Assembly: GCA_013416395.1 (NCBI GenBank)
Contig: JACCEP010000002.1
Location: forward strand, 372,001-436,000
Source of the DNA: Alcaligenaceae bacterium
Lineage (GTDB): Bacteria; Pseudomonadota; Gammaproteobacteria; Burkholderiales; Burkholderiaceae_B
Length of the DNA stretch: 64,000 bases
Reading direction: 5' to 3'
Shown: positions 33,321 through 44,812 of the stretch, piece after piece
Layout: every line of letters begins with the position of its first letter
Numbering within the stretch: the stretch's first letter is position 1
The notes under the pieces: generated by a model
Seen by the model: the letters and a program-made list of their open reading frames with translations, nothing else
The model's database searches: none
Told to the model about the DNA's origin: nothing
Program-made: the position numbers and the translations under genes

Positions 33321-33383
33321 TGGCGGACAGGGTGAGATTCGAACTCACGTTACGCCTAGACGTAAACCGGATTTCGAGTCCGG
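33321..33383 (-). tRNA. 3' portion of tRNA-Ser(CGA), left attachment site (attL)
   Basis: The minus strand shows, in order, an anticodon arm (CCGGA-CTCGAAA-TCCGG, anticodon CGA), a long class II variable arm (TACG/CGTA stem), a T arm (GTGAG-TTCGAAT-CTCAC), acceptor strand CCTGTCC, discriminator G and encoded CCA. No D arm precedes the anticodon stem. A GGACAG that could pair with the acceptor lies upstream, but 37 nt away with no D-arm fold. This is therefore the 3' part of a tRNA split by prophage insertion; the core of the att site must lie within it. Confidence 0.85.
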
Positions 33384-33485: not shown

Positions 33486-34445
33486 TCAGGCCACTTTCTT
33501 GCCTATTTTCGATAACGCGGCGAGCATCGTATCGTGCTTTAGGTGCGCGTACCGTTGCGTGGATCGCGGGTCTTTGTGGCCCAGCACCTGGCCGACCATG
33601 TACAGATCAGCGCCCGAGTTAATCAGCCCGCTTGCCGTGCTGTGCCGCAGGTCGTGAAAGTTGACGTGATCCAGCCCTGTTTTGCTGCGAGTGATGCGCT
33701 GCCATTTCTGCACGGTGGATTTCTTATGCTTTGGTGGCCACTCTTTTAAGTAGCGCTTTAGTGCGGGGTGCATGGGTACGCTTTTGATTGCGGCCCCGTT
33801 CTTGGTGTCGTGCACCACCAGGGCATCACCCTGTATCTGTGATCGCAGTATCTCAGACAGCCTCATTCCAGTATAGAAGGCGGCAACCATCACCATGCGT
33901 ATATCTTTGTGCGGCACATGGCGCAGCATGCGGTGCAGATCGCCCACCTCTATATAGACGTGCCGTTCGTTTTGCACCTTTGGCACCTGAAGTCGTGCAG
34001 CCGGGTCTGAGCCGGCCATGCCGTGCTTTTTCCATGCCCATCTACAAGCAGCGCGCAGTAGAGATATGCGGTTTTTCAGGGTGGCAGGGGCTAAGTGCGC
34101 GTCTTTCTTGACAATAAGTGCGGCGACTTCTGGCAGCTGGTCGATGGGTTTTTTGTTATAAGCCCACATCACCTGGGCCAAATGCCTTGCCGCCTCTATG
34201 TATGACTTAAGGTGCTTTTTTTCCTGCAGATATACCTTGACCGCTTCGTCTATCGTGTAGGTACGGCTGATAACGCCGGACGCGATTCCGTAGAGCCTTT
34301 CGCCTTCCTGCCTGTCGAACTTGTCCGCTTGGGCGCGATTCCAATCCCTCGGAAGATGCTTTCTAACCCTGATTCGACGCTTATTGATGCGGCGGTCGAA
34401 TTCAAAGACGAAACAACCGCGCTCTTTGTCTCTATATATCGGCAT
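33486..34445 (-). CDS. int: Tyrosine recombinase, phage integrase
   Basis: A 319-residue integrase. An N-terminal arm-binding part (MPIYRDKERGCFVFEFDRRI) and a SAM-like core-binding domain precede the catalytic domain with Arg195 (TGMRLSEI), HDLRH (His264, Arg267), His290 (LGHKD) and Tyr299 nucleophile. Start 34445 gives the usual N-terminus; a longer frame reaches 34508. It sits next to the tRNA-Ser attL, as expected for tRNA-targeting integrases, and is the last gene of the leftward operon. Confidence 0.95.
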   Translation of the reverse strand: MPIYRDKERGCFVFEFDRRINKRRIRVRKHLPRDWNRAQADKFDRQEGERLYGIASGVISRTYTIDEAVKVYLQEKKHLKSYIEAARHLAQVMWAYNKKPIDQLPEVAALIVKKDAHLAPATLKNRISLLRAACRWAWKKHGMAGSDPAARLQVPKVQNERHVYIEVGDLHRMLRHVPHKDIRMVMVAAFYTGMRLSEILRSQIQGDALVVHDTKNGAAIKSVPMHPALKRYLKEWPPKHKKSTVQKWQRITRSKTGLDHVNFHDLRHSTASGLINSGADLYMVGQVLGHKDPRSTQRYAHLKHDTMLAALSKIGKKVA

Positions 34446-34600
34446 TTTTCCCTGTACTCCAATAGGTCGGCACGGTCGAATATCACTCGTCGCCCTATTC
34501 GCATGCAAGGAATTGGGCCTTCTGGCGCTGCGAGCGCGTACAACTGGCTGCGGCTGATGCCAAGCATGTCAGCAGCGCTCTGAGGCTGGATTGCTTCCAT
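34250..34600 (-). CDS. xis: Excisionase-like HTH protein (AlpA/MerR-type domain)
   Basis: Residues 5-52 (SAADMLGISRSQLYALA...CMRIGRRVIFDRADLLEYREKC) form a winged-helix domain of the excisionase/AlpA type, with a start after GGAGG at good spacing. The frame then continues about 64 residues, overlapping the integrase start by 196 bp. That tail is low-complexity, as expected of an overlapped reading frame. Probably the directionality factor for excision. The symbol is by role, not by homology to a named protein. Confidence 0.75.
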   Translation of the reverse strand: MEAIQPQSAADMLGISRSQLYALAAPEGPIPCMRIGRRVIFDRADLLEYREKCRYIETKSAVVSSLNSTAASISVESGLESIFRGIGIAPKRTSSTGRKAKGSTESRPALSAVPTR

Positions 34601-35955: not shown

Positions 35956-36136
35956 CATTACCCTCCCGTCTCCACTGATCATCACACCCCGTAGTAGACG
36001 CGCCCATCATGGATATGCCGCCAGCGCCTATGGCTCGCTCCTGCTCTATCAATTCTGCTATCTGCTCATCGCGGTTAATGGCAATATCGACCAGTTGCTC
36101 ATGCGTGAGCCCCTGGTAATAGTGGCGTGTATTCAT
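35942..36136 (-). CDS. Phage hypothetical protein (64 aa)
   Basis: MNTRHYYQGLTHEQLVDIAI... followed by a glutamate-rich helix. Good ribosome site (AGGAG, 8 nt). The start overlaps the stop of the HTH gene as ATGA. Function unknown. Confidence 0.65.
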   Translation of the reverse strand: MNTRHYYQGLTHEQLVDIAINRDEQIAELIEQERAIGAGGISMMGASTTGCDDQWRREGNDDSK

Positions 36137-36366
36137 GTGCGACTCTCCTTGTTTTTCGATTTTGTAAGCCTGAAAACCGAGGTCTTAGACACGCCCGTTT
36201 CTTTCACTATTTCGGCGGTCGAGGCTCCAACAGAGCGCATGCGTCTTACTGTCGCGATTACCTCTGGCTTTAAGTTGGTAGTTTTGCGTTTATCTTTCGG
36301 TGGCTCAGGCAGCAGATGGATGTACGACGCTGTTAATTGACGCACCATCGCTTGGATTCCTGTCAT
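36133..36366 (-). CDS. Small HTH protein (resolvase-type helix-turn-helix)
   Basis: A 77-residue basic protein. Residues about 33-70 (LKPEVIATVRRMRSVGASTAEIVKETGVSKTSVFRL) are a helix-turn-helix like the DNA-binding end of Hin/resolvase. There is no catalytic domain, so it is a regulator or accessory DNA-binding protein. Its ATG overlaps the stop of the DGR reverse transcriptase (ATGA), and AGGAG lies within the reverse transcriptase gene. Confidence 0.7.
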   Translation of the reverse strand: MTGIQAMVRQLTASYIHLLPEPPKDKRKTTNLKPEVIATVRRMRSVGASTAEIVKETGVSKTSVFRLTKSKNKESRT

Positions 36367-37487
36367 CGAAAACTCTCCTGTGTGATTTGTGTGATCTCCG
36401 CTTGCCGGTAGGCTTTGGTGGCCTGCGCATCAACGCAGTGGCCGCGTCGGCGTGCCGCGTTAGCGACTCGAGTGCGGTCGTGGCGGGCATCCGCGTGACG
36501 CATCAGGCCTAAATAACTATTGATGCTTTCCAGCGTCTGGCCAGCGGGTAGTGTTTCGATGCGAGCCAGTGCGGTTCTTACGGTGCGTCGTCGGATTTCG
36601 CGCCGCCATGGTTTGATGACATGGCCGGCAAAGTCCACGCCGCGTGATATTGGCTGCAGAATGGTTTTGCGTGGATTTAAGGCCAAGCCAAGCTGCGGTA
36701 GGTAGTCGTTGATTTCTCGCAGCGCATCGTTTAGCCACTGCGCCGACTCGTGCAGAATCACAAAATCATCGACGTATCGAATGTAGTGTTTGGCACGCAC
36801 CTGGTGCTTCACAAACTGATCCAGACCGTCCAGCAGCACGTTGGCAAAGAACTGGCTTGATAGGTTGCCGATGGGAAGCCCGTGCAAGGGTGGCGCGTTC
36901 GTCAGGCGTTTGTGGGGCGGAACGGCTTTAAGTAGATCCTTGGCACCACGCACATGGACGTTCTCTCGCGGGTCATGGAAAAGTATCAAGGCAGCAAGAT
37001 TGCGCCACCATGGTTCCGGGATCTGTGGCGACAAGCGTAGCCAAAGCCGTCGTTTGTCGATGCTGACAAAGAAGTTGGCCAAGTCCATTTTTAGGTAATA
37101 GCCGGGTCGCGACCAGTTGTGTGTCTGGCTGCGTACTTTGGCTTCCAGGCGCTTGGCAGCGTACAGCGTGCCGCGCCCTGGGATGCATGCGCAACTGTCT
37201 GCAATGAATCTTGCGTGGAATCGCGGTGCTATTTTGTTGTAAAGCAGGTGGTGCACAATTCGGTCTCGAAAATCTGCTGCCCAAACCTCTCTAGGTCTGG
37301 GCCTTGCAATGGCAAAGCAGATGGTGCGACCAGGTCGGTAGGTGCCTTGCATCAGCTCATCATGAAGTTGGGCAAGGTTGCGCTCCAGATCAAGTTCAAA
37401 CCGCAAGGCGCTGTCGGTGGTGCGCTTATTCTTGCGGCAATCGAAGTAAGCCTGGGTAAGCAGCTCGAGCGTGTAGTCAGACTGCAT
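36363..37487 (-). CDS. DGR reverse transcriptase
   Basis: A 374-residue reverse transcriptase that makes mutagenised cDNA from the template repeat. The palm carries YLKMDLANFF (Asp135) and the catalytic YVDD at 238-241. LPIGNLSSQ at 204-212 is the DGR-clade version of motif 4, unlike the QG of retrovirus-like and group II intron enzymes. There is no maturase, endonuclease or RNase H domain. A GGAG site 6 nt before the ATG lies just past the end of the template repeat. Gene order (targets, avd, TR, RT) matches Bordetella phage BPP-1. Confidence 0.95.
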   Translation of the reverse strand: MQSDYTLELLTQAYFDCRKNKRTTDSALRFELDLERNLAQLHDELMQGTYRPGRTICFAIARPRPREVWAADFRDRIVHHLLYNKIAPRFHARFIADSCACIPGRGTLYAAKRLEAKVRSQTHNWSRPGYYLKMDLANFFVSIDKRRLWLRLSPQIPEPWWRNLAALILFHDPRENVHVRGAKDLLKAVPPHKRLTNAPPLHGLPIGNLSSQFFANVLLDGLDQFVKHQVRAKHYIRYVDDFVILHESAQWLNDALREINDYLPQLGLALNPRKTILQPISRGVDFAGHVIKPWRREIRRRTVRTALARIETLPAGQTLESINSYLGLMRHADARHDRTRVANAARRRGHCVDAQATKAYRQAEITQITQESFR

Positions 37488-37506
37488 GCATAACTCCGTG
37501 ATAATT

Positions 37507-37606
37507 TGCGGAAAGGCCGGACACGGAACTCGTTGTTACGGTTGTTGTTGTTCACGTTGCCGTTCTCAAAGTCGACGGCCCAGGCGTTGTTGCTGCCGAT
37601 AGGCGT
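37507..37606 (-). repeat. DGR template repeat (TR)
   Basis: 100 bp, noncoding, 19 bp upstream of the reverse transcriptase start. In the sense (minus) strand it contains ten AAC triplets in the frame used by the targets. If translated it would read SNNAWAVDFENGNVNNNN. Its last 25 or so nt (ending CCGGCCTTTCCGCA) are identical in both VRs and correspond to the region where cDNA synthesis or homing starts (IMH-like). Confidence 0.95.
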
Positions 37607-37745
37607 ATGCCACACTATTCACGTCGTCCCAGCGAGAGCATCAGCCTTCACCAGTGCGACTGCGCCAGACCTTGCGACCTGATGTCGCTGGTTTCCGTTA
37701 TGCGCTTCTCGGTGGCCTTGTGGGCCAGCGGTGCGACCAGATTAT

Positions 37746-38132
37746 CTAAGCGCGTTGGCCCGATCGCCGTGACGAAGGGGCAGCAAGCGCATGTTCGGAG
37801 TGTTTGAGCCAGCCGGTGGACTGCTTGCCGATACTGTCGAGCAGCGCTACCAGTTGCGCGTATTGGCCTCGGGATATGAGGCGAAGATCTACCGCAAGAC
37901 GGGCCGATAGGTTGGTTGCTTCGACTTCTTCGCGCAGATCGCGCAGCACCCGGACTTTGTCGCCTACGGTATTGGCTTTGTAGACCAGTCGCACTAGGCC
38001 AAAACACTGGCGCCTGAAATCGGCGCCGAAGTCGGCCTTATAGTTTCTGGGCATATTGGCAACTAGCCTGGTAGCCAGTAGGGTCAGATCATAGGTCGAG
38101 CGGTATATCTGAGTGTCTGTGTGCAGGGCCAT
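37746..38132 (-). CDS. avd: DGR accessory variability determinant (Avd)
   Basis: A 128-residue basic helical protein. The pattern TYDLTLLATRLVANMPRNYK-(n)-LVRLVYKANTVGDKVRVLRDLREEVEATNLSARL matches the Avd/four-helix (S23-like) family. Avd pentamers bind the DGR RNA and the reverse transcriptase and are needed for mutagenic homing. It lies between the last target gene and the template repeat, as in BPP-1. No clear Shine-Dalgarno; a GC hairpin sits 8 nt before its ATG. Confidence 0.92.
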   Translation of the reverse strand: MALHTDTQIYRSTYDLTLLATRLVANMPRNYKADFGADFRRQCFGLVRLVYKANTVGDKVRVLRDLREEVEATNLSARLAVDLRLISRGQYAQLVALLDSIGKQSTGWLKHSEHALAAPSSRRSGQRA

Positions 38133-38140
38133 GACGCATT

Positions 38141-38155
38141 GCGGGCGGTGCCCGC
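38141..38155 (-). other. GC-rich hairpin 30 nt after VR1
   Basis: GCGGGC-GGT-GCCCGC (plus strand), a perfect 6-bp stem with a 3-nt loop, 7 bp past the stop of the first target gene. Its spacing from the VR end equals that of the hairpin after VR2. In BPP-1 a hairpin or cruciform downstream of the VR is needed for target recognition; the same role is inferred here. Confidence 0.75.
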
Positions 38156-38162
38156 TAAAGAG

Positions 38163-38582
38163 TTAAAGGGATGAAGCGATAATGCTGCGGAAAGGCCGGA
38201 CACGGAACTCGTCGCGACGGGTGTCGCCGTGCACGTAGCCGTCCTCAAAGCCGACGGCCCAGGCGTTGCTGCTGCCGATAGGCGTTGACGTCCAATACCA
38301 GTCATCCTTGCTGAAAAGCTCGGGCGTATTGATGTAGGCCAGCATGAGTTCGCGTTGATCAGGTACGCGCCAGTCGGCGTGGTCGTTGATTTCGCCCTTG
38401 TCCTGCACGGCCTGGGCTGCGTCATTGAAGCTGACGTCTTCAATATCGTGTTCAGGGCCACCCGGGACGAACAGGTGGTGCAGTGCGCCGTCTTTCATCA
38501 GGCTGCCGATGTAAATGCCACCTTGCTCGGGCCAAGCGTGCCCGATGGTAGGAATGGTCGTTTGTTGCGTTACCGTAGTCAT
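38163..38582 (-). CDS. DGR target protein 1 (DUF1566/C-type-lectin-like)
   Basis: A 139-residue protein paralogous to the next gene upstream. QGGIYIGSLMKDG and DWRVPDQRELMLAYIN precede the ligand-binding end, DDWYWTSTPIGSSNAWAV and EFRVRPFR, typical of Fib_succ/Lcl (DUF1566) C-type-lectin folds. The variable repeat covers residues about 100-132. Ten AAC-derived positions and one GAC can vary in the lectin-like loop while the scaffold stays fixed. Probably a displayed binding protein. The ribosome site AGGAG directly follows the hairpin after VR2. Confidence 0.9.
   Translation of the reverse strand: MTTVTQQTTIPTIGHAWPEQGGIYIGSLMKDGALHHLFVPGGPEHDIEDVSFNDAAQAVQDKGEINDHADWRVPDQRELMLAYINTPELFSKDDWYWTSTPIGSSNAWAVGFEDGYVHGDTRRDEFRVRPFRSIIASSL
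38186..38285 (-). repeat. DGR variable repeat VR1
   Basis: 100 bp aligned without gaps to the template repeat: 12 differences, every one at an adenine of the template sense strand, none at C, G or T. Confidence 0.96.
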
Positions 38583-38595
38583 GCGTTAGGCTCCT

Positions 38596-38612
38596 GCCGG
38601 GCGCAGCCCGGC
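38596..38612 (-). other. GC-rich hairpin 30 nt after VR2
   Basis: GCCGGGC-GCA-GCCCGGC (plus strand): perfect 7-bp stem, 3-nt loop. It lies 16 bp past the stop of the second target gene and abuts the ribosome site of the first. Confidence 0.75.
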
Positions 38613-38628
38613 CAAGTGGGTGAATGGA

Positions 38629-39192
38629 TTAATAGGTGAATCTGCGGAAAGGCCGGACACGGAACTCGTAGCTACGGTTGAGGAGGCTCACGAGGCCGCT
38701 CTCAAAGGCGACGGCCCAGGCGCTGCTGCTGCCGATAGGCGTTGATGTCCAGTAGTAGCTGTCTTTGCCAAACAGCTTCGGCACATTGGCCATGGCAATC
38801 AGGAATTCACGGCGTGCCGGCAGGTAGAAGTCCATGTGCCCGTCAACCTCATACTGTGCAGCCAGATACGCGGCTGGATGATCGGCGCGGTTAAGGCGGT
38901 TCGTATTGCCCGGGCCGTCCCACTCTGACAGGTCACGCTCACCGTCCGGGCCCCATTTGGCTTTGCCTATATCCTGCTCTTTGCCGATGGCCAGGCCGTA
39001 CAACACGCCATCATCGCCTTGAATGTCGCCTGCGTAGATGCCGCCCTGGCCGTGCAAATACTCGCCGATCTTGTAGCGTGTTGGTTGTGCGGGGTGTTGT
39101 TGCTGCAAGCGCTCAAACAGCGCTGATGCCACTTTATCGGCGGGCAGGGCGATAGAGGCCCCGCCGCCCAGTTCAAACTGGATGGTATCCAT
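38629..39192 (-). CDS. DGR target protein 2 (DUF1566/C-type-lectin-like)
   Basis: A 187-residue paralogue of target 1. An extra N-terminal segment (MDTIQFELGGGASIALPADKV) is followed by QGGIYAGDIQGDDGVLYGLAIG and MDFYLPARREFLIAMANV. The lectin-like end is SYYWTSTPIGSSSAWAV to EFRVRPFRRFTY. The variable repeat covers residues about 151-183. Good ribosome site (AAAGGAAACCC before ATG). No transmembrane or signal sequence, consistent with virion assembly from the cytoplasm, though no tail gene is adjacent. Confidence 0.9.
   Translation of the reverse strand: MDTIQFELGGGASIALPADKVASALFERLQQQHPAQPTRYKIGEYLHGQGGIYAGDIQGDDGVLYGLAIGKEQDIGKAKWGPDGERDLSEWDGPGNTNRLNRADHPAAYLAAQYEVDGHMDFYLPARREFLIAMANVPKLFGKDSYYWTSTPIGSSSAWAVAFESGLVSLLNRSYEFRVRPFRRFTY
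38643..38742 (-). repeat. DGR variable repeat VR2
   Basis: 100 bp, 13 differences from the template repeat, all at template adenines. It differs from VR1 at many of the same sites but with other bases, so the two VRs were diversified independently. Confidence 0.96.
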
Positions 39193-39325
39193 GGGTTTCC
39201 TTTGGGAAATGATGTATGAAGGTTGCTGCTTGATTTCTTGACCCCCGCGACACCTTCACGGGGTATGGCCGCTTTACGACTGGCCAGGCCGGGAGACAAC
39301 TTCAAATCTTGCGAGTGATTGTTTA

Positions 39326-39391
39326 TTAAAGTGGCTTGCCAATTGCCCAGATCGCTGCGGCGATGACGAGCAGACATAACAAAAAGTCCAT
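39326..39391 (-). CDS. 21-residue hydrophobic phage peptide
   Basis: ATG at 39391 follows AGAGG by 5 nt. The peptide (MDFLLCLLVIAAAIWAIGKPL) is almost all transmembrane. Very short, so existence is uncertain. It fills the gap between the 143-residue gene and the DGR. Confidence 0.4.
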   Translation of the reverse strand: MDFLLCLLVIAAAIWAIGKPL

Positions 39392-39405
39392 ATCTACCTC
39401 TCTGA

Positions 39406-39837
39406 TCATGGTGTTGACGTCAGTGGGTTGATTCCCTGCTCTCGCATCTGCCGCACTGCTGCTACAGCAAGTTTCTCTGCGGTATACAGCTTGGCAACAT
39501 CGATCCAACCCAGTACGTTGTCGATCGCATTGACCGCCACGCGCACAGGTGCCAGATGGTGGTCTTGAGGCTTGAGGCCGGCATCGATGAGCTTGCCGAT
39601 ATCATTCATGGCCATTGCCCCACCTTGCACGAGACGGTATTCATGTGCACACCGTTCGTCATACCGAATGGTCAGGCCGATCATGTTGATGATGTTGGCC
39701 AACGAGTCAAACGAGCGGGTATCTGCCCCGTAGGTCAGCGCGGCCAGGCTCGCATGCATGTGTAAAGCGATCATGTCGCGCAAGCCGGTCATGGGGATGC
39801 GCACGGGTTTGGGTTTATAGACTCTACGTTTACGCAT
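39406..39837 (-). CDS. Phage hypothetical protein (143 aa)
   Basis: A basic N-terminus (MRKRRVYKPKPVRIPMTGL) is followed by a helical body with repeated Ala/Met-rich helices. I recall similar proteins in early regions of Burkholderiales prophages without function. It overlaps the kinase gene by 8 bp. Confidence 0.65.
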   Translation of the reverse strand: MRKRRVYKPKPVRIPMTGLRDMIALHMHASLAALTYGADTRSFDSLANIINMIGLTIRYDERCAHEYRLVQGGAMAMNDIGKLIDAGLKPQDHHLAPVRVAVNAIDNVLGWIDVAKLYTAEKLAVAAVRQMREQGINPLTSTP

Positions 39838-40459
39838 GGCTGGCCTGGTAGGCTTTCATGACCTCGGCTGCCAGGCTGGTCATGGACCGGTTGTTGTTGA
39901 TCGTGACGTCAGGGGTGATCTGATCCACTTCGCGTTCAGACTGGTGGTTGGCGGGTGATTGCTCGGCCAGAACACGGGTTACCTTCCAGATGACGCCGCC
40001 GTTGTAACGGACAAATGCGGCCTCGTTGTCGAATCGAAGGTCAGTGATGACGATCCTCCGAAAGCCTCTGCGCAGTGCTTCGTGCAACGTGTCGCTGGCG
40101 ATACGCGTCCAGTAGTGAGGCTGTTGGACCCGGCGATACTCTGTGCCCCACCAACGCATGATTTCGCGTGGTGATCTGGGTGCTGAAAAGCTGACTCCGT
40201 GCTTTGCCATGGTGGTTGTAAAGACTCGGTCGCTGCATCGCTCAATCGCCAGTGCCTCGATTTTCCGTTCTTTCGCGGATCCGTGAAAGATGGTCGGGTC
40301 GATGCCAAAGGCGTTGGTGATCTCGGCGCGCACGGGGTCGGCGAACGCAAATCGATAGAACTGATAGGCGTCACACAGTATGTCAGCGGCCGTGTCCTTG
40401 CCTGCACCCGCCCGGCCCGTCAAGCCCAGTATCAGGTAACGGTCATCCAAATGGCTCAT
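39830..40459 (-). CDS. P-loop deoxynucleoside monophosphate kinase-like protein
   Basis: A 209-residue protein with the P-loop GLTGRAGAGKDTAA (12-25) followed by FYRFAFADPVR and a lid region; this matches phage dNMP kinases (AAA_33/DUF-type P-loop kinases), which raise dNTP supply in infection. Overlaps the DUF2303 gene by 4 bp in the leftward early operon. Confidence 0.8.
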   Translation of the reverse strand: MSHLDDRYLILGLTGRAGAGKDTAADILCDAYQFYRFAFADPVRAEITNAFGIDPTIFHGSAKERKIEALAIERCSDRVFTTTMAKHGVSFSAPRSPREIMRWWGTEYRRVQQPHYWTRIASDTLHEALRRGFRRIVITDLRFDNEAAFVRYNGGVIWKVTRVLAEQSPANHQSEREVDQITPDVTINNNRSMTSLAAEVMKAYQASHA

Positions 40460-41319
40460 TTGACGATCTCGCCATACAGGACGGGTAGGTTGGTTTTCTC
40501 CTTCACGTTAGCAAGGATAGTTTCAACCGCGTCGTTGATAACTAGGTCAGGACGGATGAGGTCGTACCAGAGCGAGAGTTTGCCGCCGTGCACGCGGTAA
40601 CGCAGTTTGGCTTCAAGCAAGTAGGCTTGGCCCATCCAGAAGGCAGGCAGGCCTATCATGAACTTGTCGAAGGCTTTCATTTTTTCGACTGTGGTGGCGT
40701 CGTCGGTGTCGATAAACTGAAGGTCGGAACCACCCGATTGCAGCCGGACTGCTGAGCGAAACTGTTTGTCCTGATTGGCTTCGAACTGGGTGGCCATCTG
40801 CAGCATTTCGGTCCCTGTTGGATATCCGTCCTGGCTGCTGATGTCTTTGGAGTTATTGTCGATAAAGAGCGCAAACTCGAACTGGCTCATGGCTTTGCCG
40901 TTGTGCGCGTTCCATGTTTTCCATTCGTGCGAGGATTCCGGAATAAGCACTGCCGAAAAGTCGCGCCACCCCGGTTCGCTGTCGTCGACCTCGCCGCCCT
41001 GGTGCTCGTTAAAAACTGCCGTGATCTGCAACGGCGTGTCGATGTTGCGCGGATCAACTTTGGCGTAGAGCAATGATTCATCGCATCTATGCGTATTTAC
41101 GTAATGAATGAATGAGTCGGCCGTCTTGACGCGTACAGCGCCAGTTTTGCGCCAGGGTCGGTTCTGTAACTTTTCGAGTGCACTGTCGGTCTGAAGCGAA
41201 AACCCATCAGGAACGGCGTAAATTGTGCAGCGATCATTGCCTTCTGATAATAGCTCGGGCTTTCTGGATTCCCGAACAATGGTTTCGGCAATGTTAGTGT
41301 CGTTGATTCCTTGGTTCAT
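40456..41319 (-). CDS. DUF2303 family phage protein (YfdQ-like)
   Basis: A 287-residue protein with the family landmarks GWRDFSAVL, SHEWKTWNAHNGKAMSQFEFALFIDNN and the closing RYRVHGGKLSLWYDLIRPD. Members such as YfdQ are common in prophage early operons; the molecular role is not known. It lies directly upstream of the kinase and 1 bp from the preceding gene. Confidence 0.85.
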   Translation of the reverse strand: MNQGINDTNIAETIVRESRKPELLSEGNDRCTIYAVPDGFSLQTDSALEKLQNRPWRKTGAVRVKTADSFIHYVNTHRCDESLLYAKVDPRNIDTPLQITAVFNEHQGGEVDDSEPGWRDFSAVLIPESSHEWKTWNAHNGKAMSQFEFALFIDNNSKDISSQDGYPTGTEMLQMATQFEANQDKQFRSAVRLQSGGSDLQFIDTDDATTVEKMKAFDKFMIGLPAFWMGQAYLLEAKLRYRVHGGKLSLWYDLIRPDLVINDAVETILANVKEKTNLPVLYGEIVK

Positions 41320-44038: not shown

Positions 44039-44812
44039 CTATCCCTTTCGTAGGGTCCACCAAGCAAGCACTTTGCCGCAGACGACGATAGAGTCCCCAA
44101 CGCGACTCAAGTCATGGCGTTCTTCGTCTGGATATTCGGCTGTGTTGTCGCTGCGAATGATTAAAGTTCCGTTGCTTAAGATCATCGCCTTCTTAAGAAT
44201 GAATCTGCCGGCCACGTCCAACACATAGATCCCCGCCGTTTCAATGCTGCGGCACTCTATATCTACAAACACGAGATCTTTGTCATTGATAGTAGGGGCC
44301 ATGCTGTTGCCATTTCCGGTCAGGACTTTAATCCGTGCTGGGTTTGTGGCTCCAACCTCTTGACGCACCCATTGCTCCAGCACATCGAGGTGCTGAACTA
44401 TTTGTATTGGCTCGTTGATGAGGGCGCCTGCACCCATCGATGGGCGGGGCGAAAGATGCTCAAGTCGTATGTAACCTTCTGGAGGACGATCCGCAGCCCT
44501 TCCGTAGTGTGAGGTTACTTTTCTGATTTGCGTTATTGGAGCTTGGCTAAGAGCAATCTTCCCGGCCTCTGCCGCCAGACGTGGGCTGAAATCATCAATC
44601 CTGCATCCGAGCCCGTGAGCAAATCCCACTGCTGCCTTTAGGCTCAAGGCAGATCGGCCAGCAAGAAAATTTCCTACGGCCGCTTGATTTCCTATCTCGT
44701 ATGTTTCGCCAAACACTTCTTGCGTGCTTGGTTTCTTTTCATCCCAAATTGCTCTGAGTTTTTTCGCCTCAAGGCGATGTTCGTCGGTGATTTTTGCTTT
44801 TTTAGAGTCCAT
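44039..44812 (-). CDS. CI-type repressor (XRE HTH plus S24 peptidase)
   Basis: A 257-residue repressor. N-terminal helix-turn-helix (about 38-70) binds operators. The C-terminal S24/LexA-like domain has Ser170 (GNGNSMAPT) and Lys207/208 (GRFILKKAM), with a self-cleavage Ala-Gly bond at 128-129. RecA-stimulated cleavage after DNA damage would induce the prophage. It is read leftward from the switch region between two operators and probably drives expression of the two genes after it. A weak promoter (TTTCAC-18-TAATGT) ends only 6 nt before its ATG. Confidence 0.92.
   Translation of the reverse strand: MDSKKAKITDEHRLEAKKLRAIWDEKKPSTQEVFGETYEIGNQAAVGNFLAGRSALSLKAAVGFAHGLGCRIDDFSPRLAAEAGKIALSQAPITQIRKVTSHYGRAADRPPEGYIRLEHLSPRPSMGAGALINEPIQIVQHLDVLEQWVRQEVGATNPARIKVLTGNGNSMAPTINDKDLVFVDIECRSIETAGIYVLDVAGRFILKKAMILSNGTLIIRSDNTAEYPDEERHDLSRVGDSIVVCGKVLAWWTLRKG

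Follow-up and report, generated by a model that had tools for sequence, protein, structure and literature searches.

A diversity-generating retroelement with two target genes and an RNA 5' of its template in a prophage of an Alcaligenaceae bacterium

What does a diversity-generating retroelement (DGR) vary when it lies in a prophage, and can one template there serve two genes? These questions are raised by a cassette on the minus strand at 36363-39192 of a 64,000-nt stretch of DNA from an Alcaligenaceae bacterium (assembly GCA_013416395.1, contig JACCEP010000002.1, positions 372,001 to 436,000), referred to here as the window. An earlier reading made from the letters alone (the sequence-only reading) had described a reverse transcriptase (RT) with the motifs LPIGNLSSQ and YVDD, an Avd-like gene, a template repeat (TR) of about 100 bp and two target genes, all on the minus strand; each of these elements was present where it had been placed, with the TR measuring 104 nt. 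To these we add an RT-15 RNA between avd and the TR and a short, perfect inverted repeat following each variable repeat (VR). We consider it very probable that the whole is best explained as a complete DGR that belongs to the RT-15 lineage and is carried by a temperate phage, working as follows. The RT, together with Avd, would reverse-transcribe the TR RNA with errors at adenines, and the resulting cDNA would replace the VR of either target, guided by 3' homology and a hairpin, as work on phage BPP-1 leads us to expect. The RT-15 RNA 5' of the TR would, as we infer here, do the job of the 3' spacer of BPP-1 by binding RT-Avd and perhaps by priming. The products would be two small lectin-fold proteins, encoded in the prophage half that spans repressor to integrase, and their expression would probably be early or in the lysogen.

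Two target genes and one template

In order of transcription the cassette consists of target 2 (187 aa; 38629..39192), target 1 (139 aa; 38163..38582), avd (accessory variability determinant, 128 aa; 37746..38132), a gap of 139 nt, the TR (37503..37606), 15 nt and the RT gene (374 aa; 36363..37487). The TR has 29 adenines, mostly in AAC codons, and its near-copies VR1 (38182..38285) and VR2 (38639..38742) lie at the C termini of targets 1 and 2, respectively; together the three copies make up direct repeat family D1. A search of the whole genome of this bacterium gave no copies beyond these three, and further targets elsewhere in it were rejected on this result. Over the aligned repeats (104 nt against VR2 and 100 nt against VR1), 26 of 56 TR adenines were changed vs. 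none of 148 other bases (Fisher P 1.3e-17). VR1 differs at one non-A base as well, within the final 4 nt of the 104-nt repeat, which lie outside the BLAST-aligned part. The changed template codons, read in the target frame, are AAC or GAC in 11 of 12 cases, altered at first or second positions, and the twelfth is an AAA at the very end of the repeat. Because the differences in the aligned repeats lie only at template adenines and are unlike between the two copies, they show that both target genes were rewritten from one template, as the sequence-only reading had proposed.

The RT (RVT_1, 3.3e-15; PHROG 1423 'Reverse transcriptase', 8.7e-115) has 8ub7 as its best match among solved structures (E 4.9e-35), followed by a group II maturase (7e-12). 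In a tree of 35 rows, from which L175 and L186 were finally left out for their very long branches (L numbers denote individual loci), it falls among phage DGR RTs and away from a group-II-like RT; a placement outside the DGRs, which the sequence-only reading had named as a result that would speak against it, was not found. The genome itself encodes two group-II-like reverse transcriptases on contig C18 (L175 and L176), which were used as outgroup and from both of which the window RT stands apart. The avd product matches bAvd (PF22296, E 8.4e-13) and PHROG 3206 'Avd protein of DGR' (E 6.5e-29).

RT searches supplied the relatives, for which we kept the best 80 among 361 viral and the best 80 among 143 genome candidates and added three phages; L171, with a truncated RT, was excluded, and merging 18 near-duplicates reduced 164 loci to 146 non-redundant ones. 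Phage records match the window RT at 58-61% identity, while the genome-record relatives are, by their titles, mostly from Beta- and Gammaproteobacteria (Bordetella, Achromobacter, Pseudomonas, Paraburkholderia, Janthinobacterium and others), with a few in Geobacteraceae, Planctomycetota and Verrucomicrobiaceae bins. The window DGR is a new member of a large known lineage of phage DGRs of Proteobacteria. Avd is present in 145/146 of these relatives, and TR/VR pairs were identified in 142, of which 140 have them near the RT and two (L141 and L154) yielded them after a wider search. No pairs were found in L052, L107 and L144, whose sequences end ~530-730 nt before the RT, or in L132, which has neither Avd nor RT-15. 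Of the 140 loci, 13 have one VR, 88 have two, 35 have three and 4 have four, while L154 has two and L141 three; because of truncated contigs and flanks these counts are lower bounds. All 310 VRs of the 140 loci are on the strand of their TR. Since 129 of the 142 loci with TR/VR pairs have two to four targets, two targets on one template are the rule in this lineage and no special trait of this phage. Multiple targets are already known: a 2012 survey listed several Proteobacteria with two to four VRs and concluded that the mechanism is indifferent to the arrangement (PMC3521204), and two targets have been reported for 13% of DGR cassettes (PMC10743442).

The adenine specificity extends to the relatives. 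In the 310 TR/VR pairs, chosen for at least 60% A among their differences and coming from 140 of the 146 loci, 3865/4048 differences are at TR adenines; without this choice the count is 3935/4185 in 316 pairs, and L141 and L154 contribute five more pairs with 60/60 differences at A. Many non-adenine differences in related strains, which the sequence-only reading had offered as grounds for doubting it, were not found. Per base, 41% of TR adenines were changed in the lineage pairs vs. 0.6-1.2% of C, G and T. Between near relatives the TR differs by 0-2% in most pairs, the VR by 10-20% and the RT by 5-10%, and 40 of the 99 differences between L011 and L013 fall within ~170 nt of VR. On these patterns the DGR is complete and probably working in this prophage. 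Separately, the TRs of L013, L014 and L022 have lost adenines (16, 9 and 21 remain vs. 27-30 in near kin), as if cDNA may have homed into the TR itself, or short-read mis-assembly may be responsible.

Hairpins are a further feature of the lineage. A perfect inverted repeat follows 112/310 VRs, vs. 11.8 in shuffles, 24 in the 70 nt before the VR and 7/140 after the TR; most start 24-37 nt 3' of the VR and 58/112 have loops of 3 nt. Those of the window are GC-rich, with a 6-bp stem after VR1 (38141..38155) and a 7-bp stem after VR2 (38596..38612) and the 3-nt loops ACC and TGC. BPP-1 needs an inverted repeat after its VR, with a GC-rich stem of 7-10 bp (PMC3240598); its loop is a 4-nt GRNA, unlike the mostly 3-nt loops of this lineage.

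The prophage setting and the nature of the targets

The window is part of contig C22 of this genome, and the prophage runs from 33321 to ~8 kb beyond the end of the window (L004:12008). Its left end (33321..33383) is a piece of tRNA-Ser(CGA) with at least 60 nt identical to the right end (L004:11946-12008), the only end at which ARAGORN finds this tRNA whole. From the left, the minus strand carries the integrase (33486..34508; Phage_integrase 3.3e-17; PHROG 1), small genes, the DGR, a dNMP kinase, DUF2303, an exonuclease-like gene and a CI-like repressor (44039..44812; PHROG 4 and 6201), whereas beyond the repressor the plus strand carries primase-helicase, terminase, head, tape measure and tail genes. 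By this order and these strands the DGR sits in the immunity, recombination and integration half of the prophage, outside the tail module. Adjoining it, a 77-aa frame with a resolvase-type helix-turn-helix at 36133-36366 overlaps the RT stop by 4 nt; it was rejected as a conserved partner, having no relative among the 164 other loci.

The same setting recurs where context could be read in the lineage. With a gene panel drawn from the window and three phages, and with self-matches removed (85/145 loci gave no panel match), the integrase was downstream in 30/30 loci where it was found (24 on the DGR strand), recombination genes were on the DGR strand in 31/31 and a repressor was upstream on the same strand in 7/7, while the single tail match was on the strand opposite to the DGR. 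The window and the annotated phages agree with this context. The 20 larger neighbors inspected in ten loci are integrases, methyltransferases, ParB-like proteins, a RecE-like protein (with an additional weaker match to a 'virion structural' family), host genes and unknowns. Where readable, then, the cassette lies in the repressor-recombination-integrase region, on the strand opposite to the structural genes; control DGRs, by contrast, are mostly among annotated baseplate, fiber or virion genes.

Three named phages show the arrangement well. Burkholderia phage Magia (MT701587; PMC7883833) and the Pseudomonas phages Cruim01 and Haboob have RTs 60-61% identical to that of the window and, like it, have Avd, a TR abutting the RT, VRs with A-only changes, small targets and a place on the repressor/integrase strand. 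Haboob has two VRs, as does the window, while Cruim01 and Magia have three each, including, unlike the window, an extra target far from the cassette; the RT of Magia also differs in starting inside or before the TR. The third VR of Magia (L088:12517-12607) is in gene 046, whereas its record and the announcement name genes 47 and 57 only.

Evidence for a lectin-type fold comes from the Lcl_C profile (PF07603), which matches target 1 above its cut-off (6.3e-12) and target 2 below it (2.6e-06; 28.1 bits vs. 34.9); the profile also matches the solved chain 8q4e at 2.1e-09. The two targets are paralogs (48% in a pairwise alignment). A binding function is suggested by the fold family, so that where the sequence-only reading spoke of two binding proteins, the rewriting of both genes holds and the binding comes from the fold assignment. 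In the lineage, 302 complete target frames have a median of 189 aa, with six above 300 aa; the frames were picked automatically, and although 286/302 have the expected motif a few, e.g., in L047, are probably misread. Export of the targets was rejected on the near-absence of signals: a simple scan of 298 N termini found two that are mildly hydrophobic and one lipobox-like string.

Are these proteins receptor-binding proteins of the virion, comparable to Mtd of BPP-1, with the DGR changing host range and mere chance in the gene order placing them in the early half? This alternative is a serious one, to which we assign somewhat less than an even chance. Mtd is likewise a separate protein beside its DGR, the announcement of Magia proposes a role in host range (PMC7883833), and the published phage DGRs known to us are tied mainly to tail or attachment proteins; a survey of 30,000 DGRs links the phage clades to tail proteins but reports that most targets have no known domain outside the VR (PMC8144416). 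It has to be set against the repressor, recombination and integrase genes flanking the cassette, the 296/302 complete target frames of at most 300 aa, and the prophage's own tail protein (PHROG 469) and fiber-like genes, the latter beyond the window. Near the right prophage end (L004:9871-11810) there are three frames with many collagen-like G-x-y stretches, which are perhaps fibers of this phage. Because of the target size, the few export signals and a context that is one-sided when compared with the control DGRs, we lean slightly toward targets that are not tail fibers. Tail tropism, if the earlier comparison with BPP-1 was meant to imply it, finds no support in the position, the target size or the RNA layout.

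An RNA 5' of the template

The Rfam family RT-15 (RF03018) matches the minus strand at 37792-37603 over its full model with 134.4 bits (gathering score 82), overlapping the end of avd and running 4 nt into the TR, with the structured core at 37790-37610. The consensus fold, computed from 66 of 139 eligible loci hand-picked for spread, comprises 47 pairs; every one of them lies between avd and TR, and 37 show two-sided changes. Its paired cells amount to 95.7%, compared to 82.9% in shuffles, which keep columns but not relatedness, and 26-44% when the structure was slid. For these relatives no consensus structure was predicted within the TR itself, between TR and RT or in RT codons 1-20. In the lineage the avd-to-TR gap is 117-231 nt in 133/140 loci, and in 139/140 the distance from the TR end to the RT is between -36 and +13 nt.

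This layout is the mirror image of that in BPP-1. The two share the order target-VR, avd, TR, RT, adenine-specific changes and a DGR RT (31.7% identical), but BPP-1 has one target, in the tail region, rather than two outside the tail module, and its avd touches the TR, with a spacer of 144 nt between TR and brt filled by RF03022. That structured spacer recruits the RT and primes cDNA (PMC12875486). In BalMu-1, likewise, Rfam RT-14 fills the 3' gap between TR and RT. Of ten other phage DGRs used as controls, eight have the TR 124-309 nt before the RT position (BPP-1: 169). The controls nearest by RT identity (38%), the Bacteroides uniformis phages (F2) and the gut scaffold MT836212, are sister to the lineage in the tree, and their TRs stop 25 and 12 nt short of the RT position; neither gave an Rfam match, and the F2 cassette, unlike that of the window, adjoins an annotated outer capsid gene. 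Loci with the TR next to the RT lie on one side of a branch in 90% of bootstrap trees of this small set, with support of 92/65, which is not firm.

A structured spacer RNA 3' of the TR was not found in the window, where just 15 nt separate TR and RT. We rejected the idea that the RT gene conceals a spacer like that of BPP-1 in its 5' portion, since synonymous conservation is not raised over codons 1-50 (fourfold-site identity of 0.40-0.54 per ten-codon bin vs. 0.44 for the whole gene) and no consensus structure is present. As there is neither room for nor sign of a 3' spacer RNA, the 5' RT-15 RNA is our candidate for a stand-in.

The alternative is that RT-15 regulates the translation of avd or RT and is no counterpart of the BPP-1 spacer, with the cDNA primed otherwise. 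The position of the RNA, overlapping the end of avd and preceding the RT, would suit such a regulator; the Rfam entry states no function for RT-15, and no paper treating it was found in the literature searched. Three relatives speak to the contrary. Between TR and RT, which are 305 nt to ~1 kb apart in L083, L141 and L154, there are an open frame (L083, 5684-5990), ~0.8 kb (L141) and a 360-aa gene (L154, 6877-7959) to which a search gave no identity, yet RT-15 is still joined to the TR. Because RT-15 stays by the TR when the RT is distant, a role of the RNA in the template, rather than in RT expression, is favored on comparative grounds. BPP-1 and BalMu-1, moreover, carry another RNA family in the 3' spacer (RF03022 and RF02921, respectively), which gives one RNA per layout. 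We therefore regard the regulator as the unlikelier role, with perhaps a third of the weight at most.

The template and the RT gene are close in another respect. In the window the RT has an ATG with a GGAG 3' of the TR, but in 99/140 relatives there is no ATG, GTG or TTG in the RT frame between the TR and the RT domain. The nearest RT start codon is inside the TR in 86/140 loci (e.g., L044, L035 and L087) and in 13 exclusively upstream of it, so that in such relatives the template may contain the beginning of the RT gene, judging from the reading frames. The 2012 survey also describes one group with a TR overlapping the RT gene (PMC3521204). As an RNA family RT-15 is already in Rfam, and we make no claim that the layout is new; that the RNA belongs 5' of the TR was deduced here from coordinates. 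In our literature search, which did not include the original RT-15 description, neither the mirrored RNA layout nor the fixed early position was found in print.

The element as a whole

Some observations weigh against the explanation of the cassette given at the outset. By the rule used, 198/310 VRs have no perfect stem of 6; RNAalifold chose the RNA structure on the same alignment in which its pairing was counted; and fourfold identity in RT codons 31-50 slightly exceeds the average (0.49 and 0.54), with other bins equally high. It is also conceivable that the element, though intact, is a silent relic that has stopped homing, and a simple promoter scan of 36000-40600 gave no promoter-like sites where 2.4 were expected. 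However, the RT, avd and both targets are open, a silent relic would gather non-adenine differences, of which the aligned repeats have none, and VR turnover across the lineage is recent, so we consider a relic improbable. That the RT is a defense or other RT beside repeats by chance is refuted by the adenine pattern and deserves practically no credence: the RT matches 78 PADLOC families at E 0.001, with generic RT best, but PHROG 1423, Avd, the TR/VR pattern and the tree speak against this, and membership in a defense system was rejected for the other five cassette and neighbor proteins, none of which has a PADLOC match.

A complete DGR of the RT-15 lineage being the preferred explanation, we tentatively go one step further, to a proposal that we think has a minority chance of being correct: the RT-15 lineage may be a second architectural class of DGR that mirrors BPP-1, with an RT-recruiting and perhaps priming RNA 5' of the template, and that varies small soluble early or prophage proteins, not tail fibers. 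If so, the 3' end of the template would be free to merge with the RT gene, and the varied proteins would handle molecules in or on the phage's own host, or rival phages. The window itself, as far as its sequence can tell, documents a complete and probably active mutator with two targets in a prophage. If the 5' RNA does the work of the 3' spacer, a mechanism taken to require a 3' spacer tolerates permutation, and if the targets are not virion proteins, the DGRs of temperate phages serve a purpose other than host-range switching.

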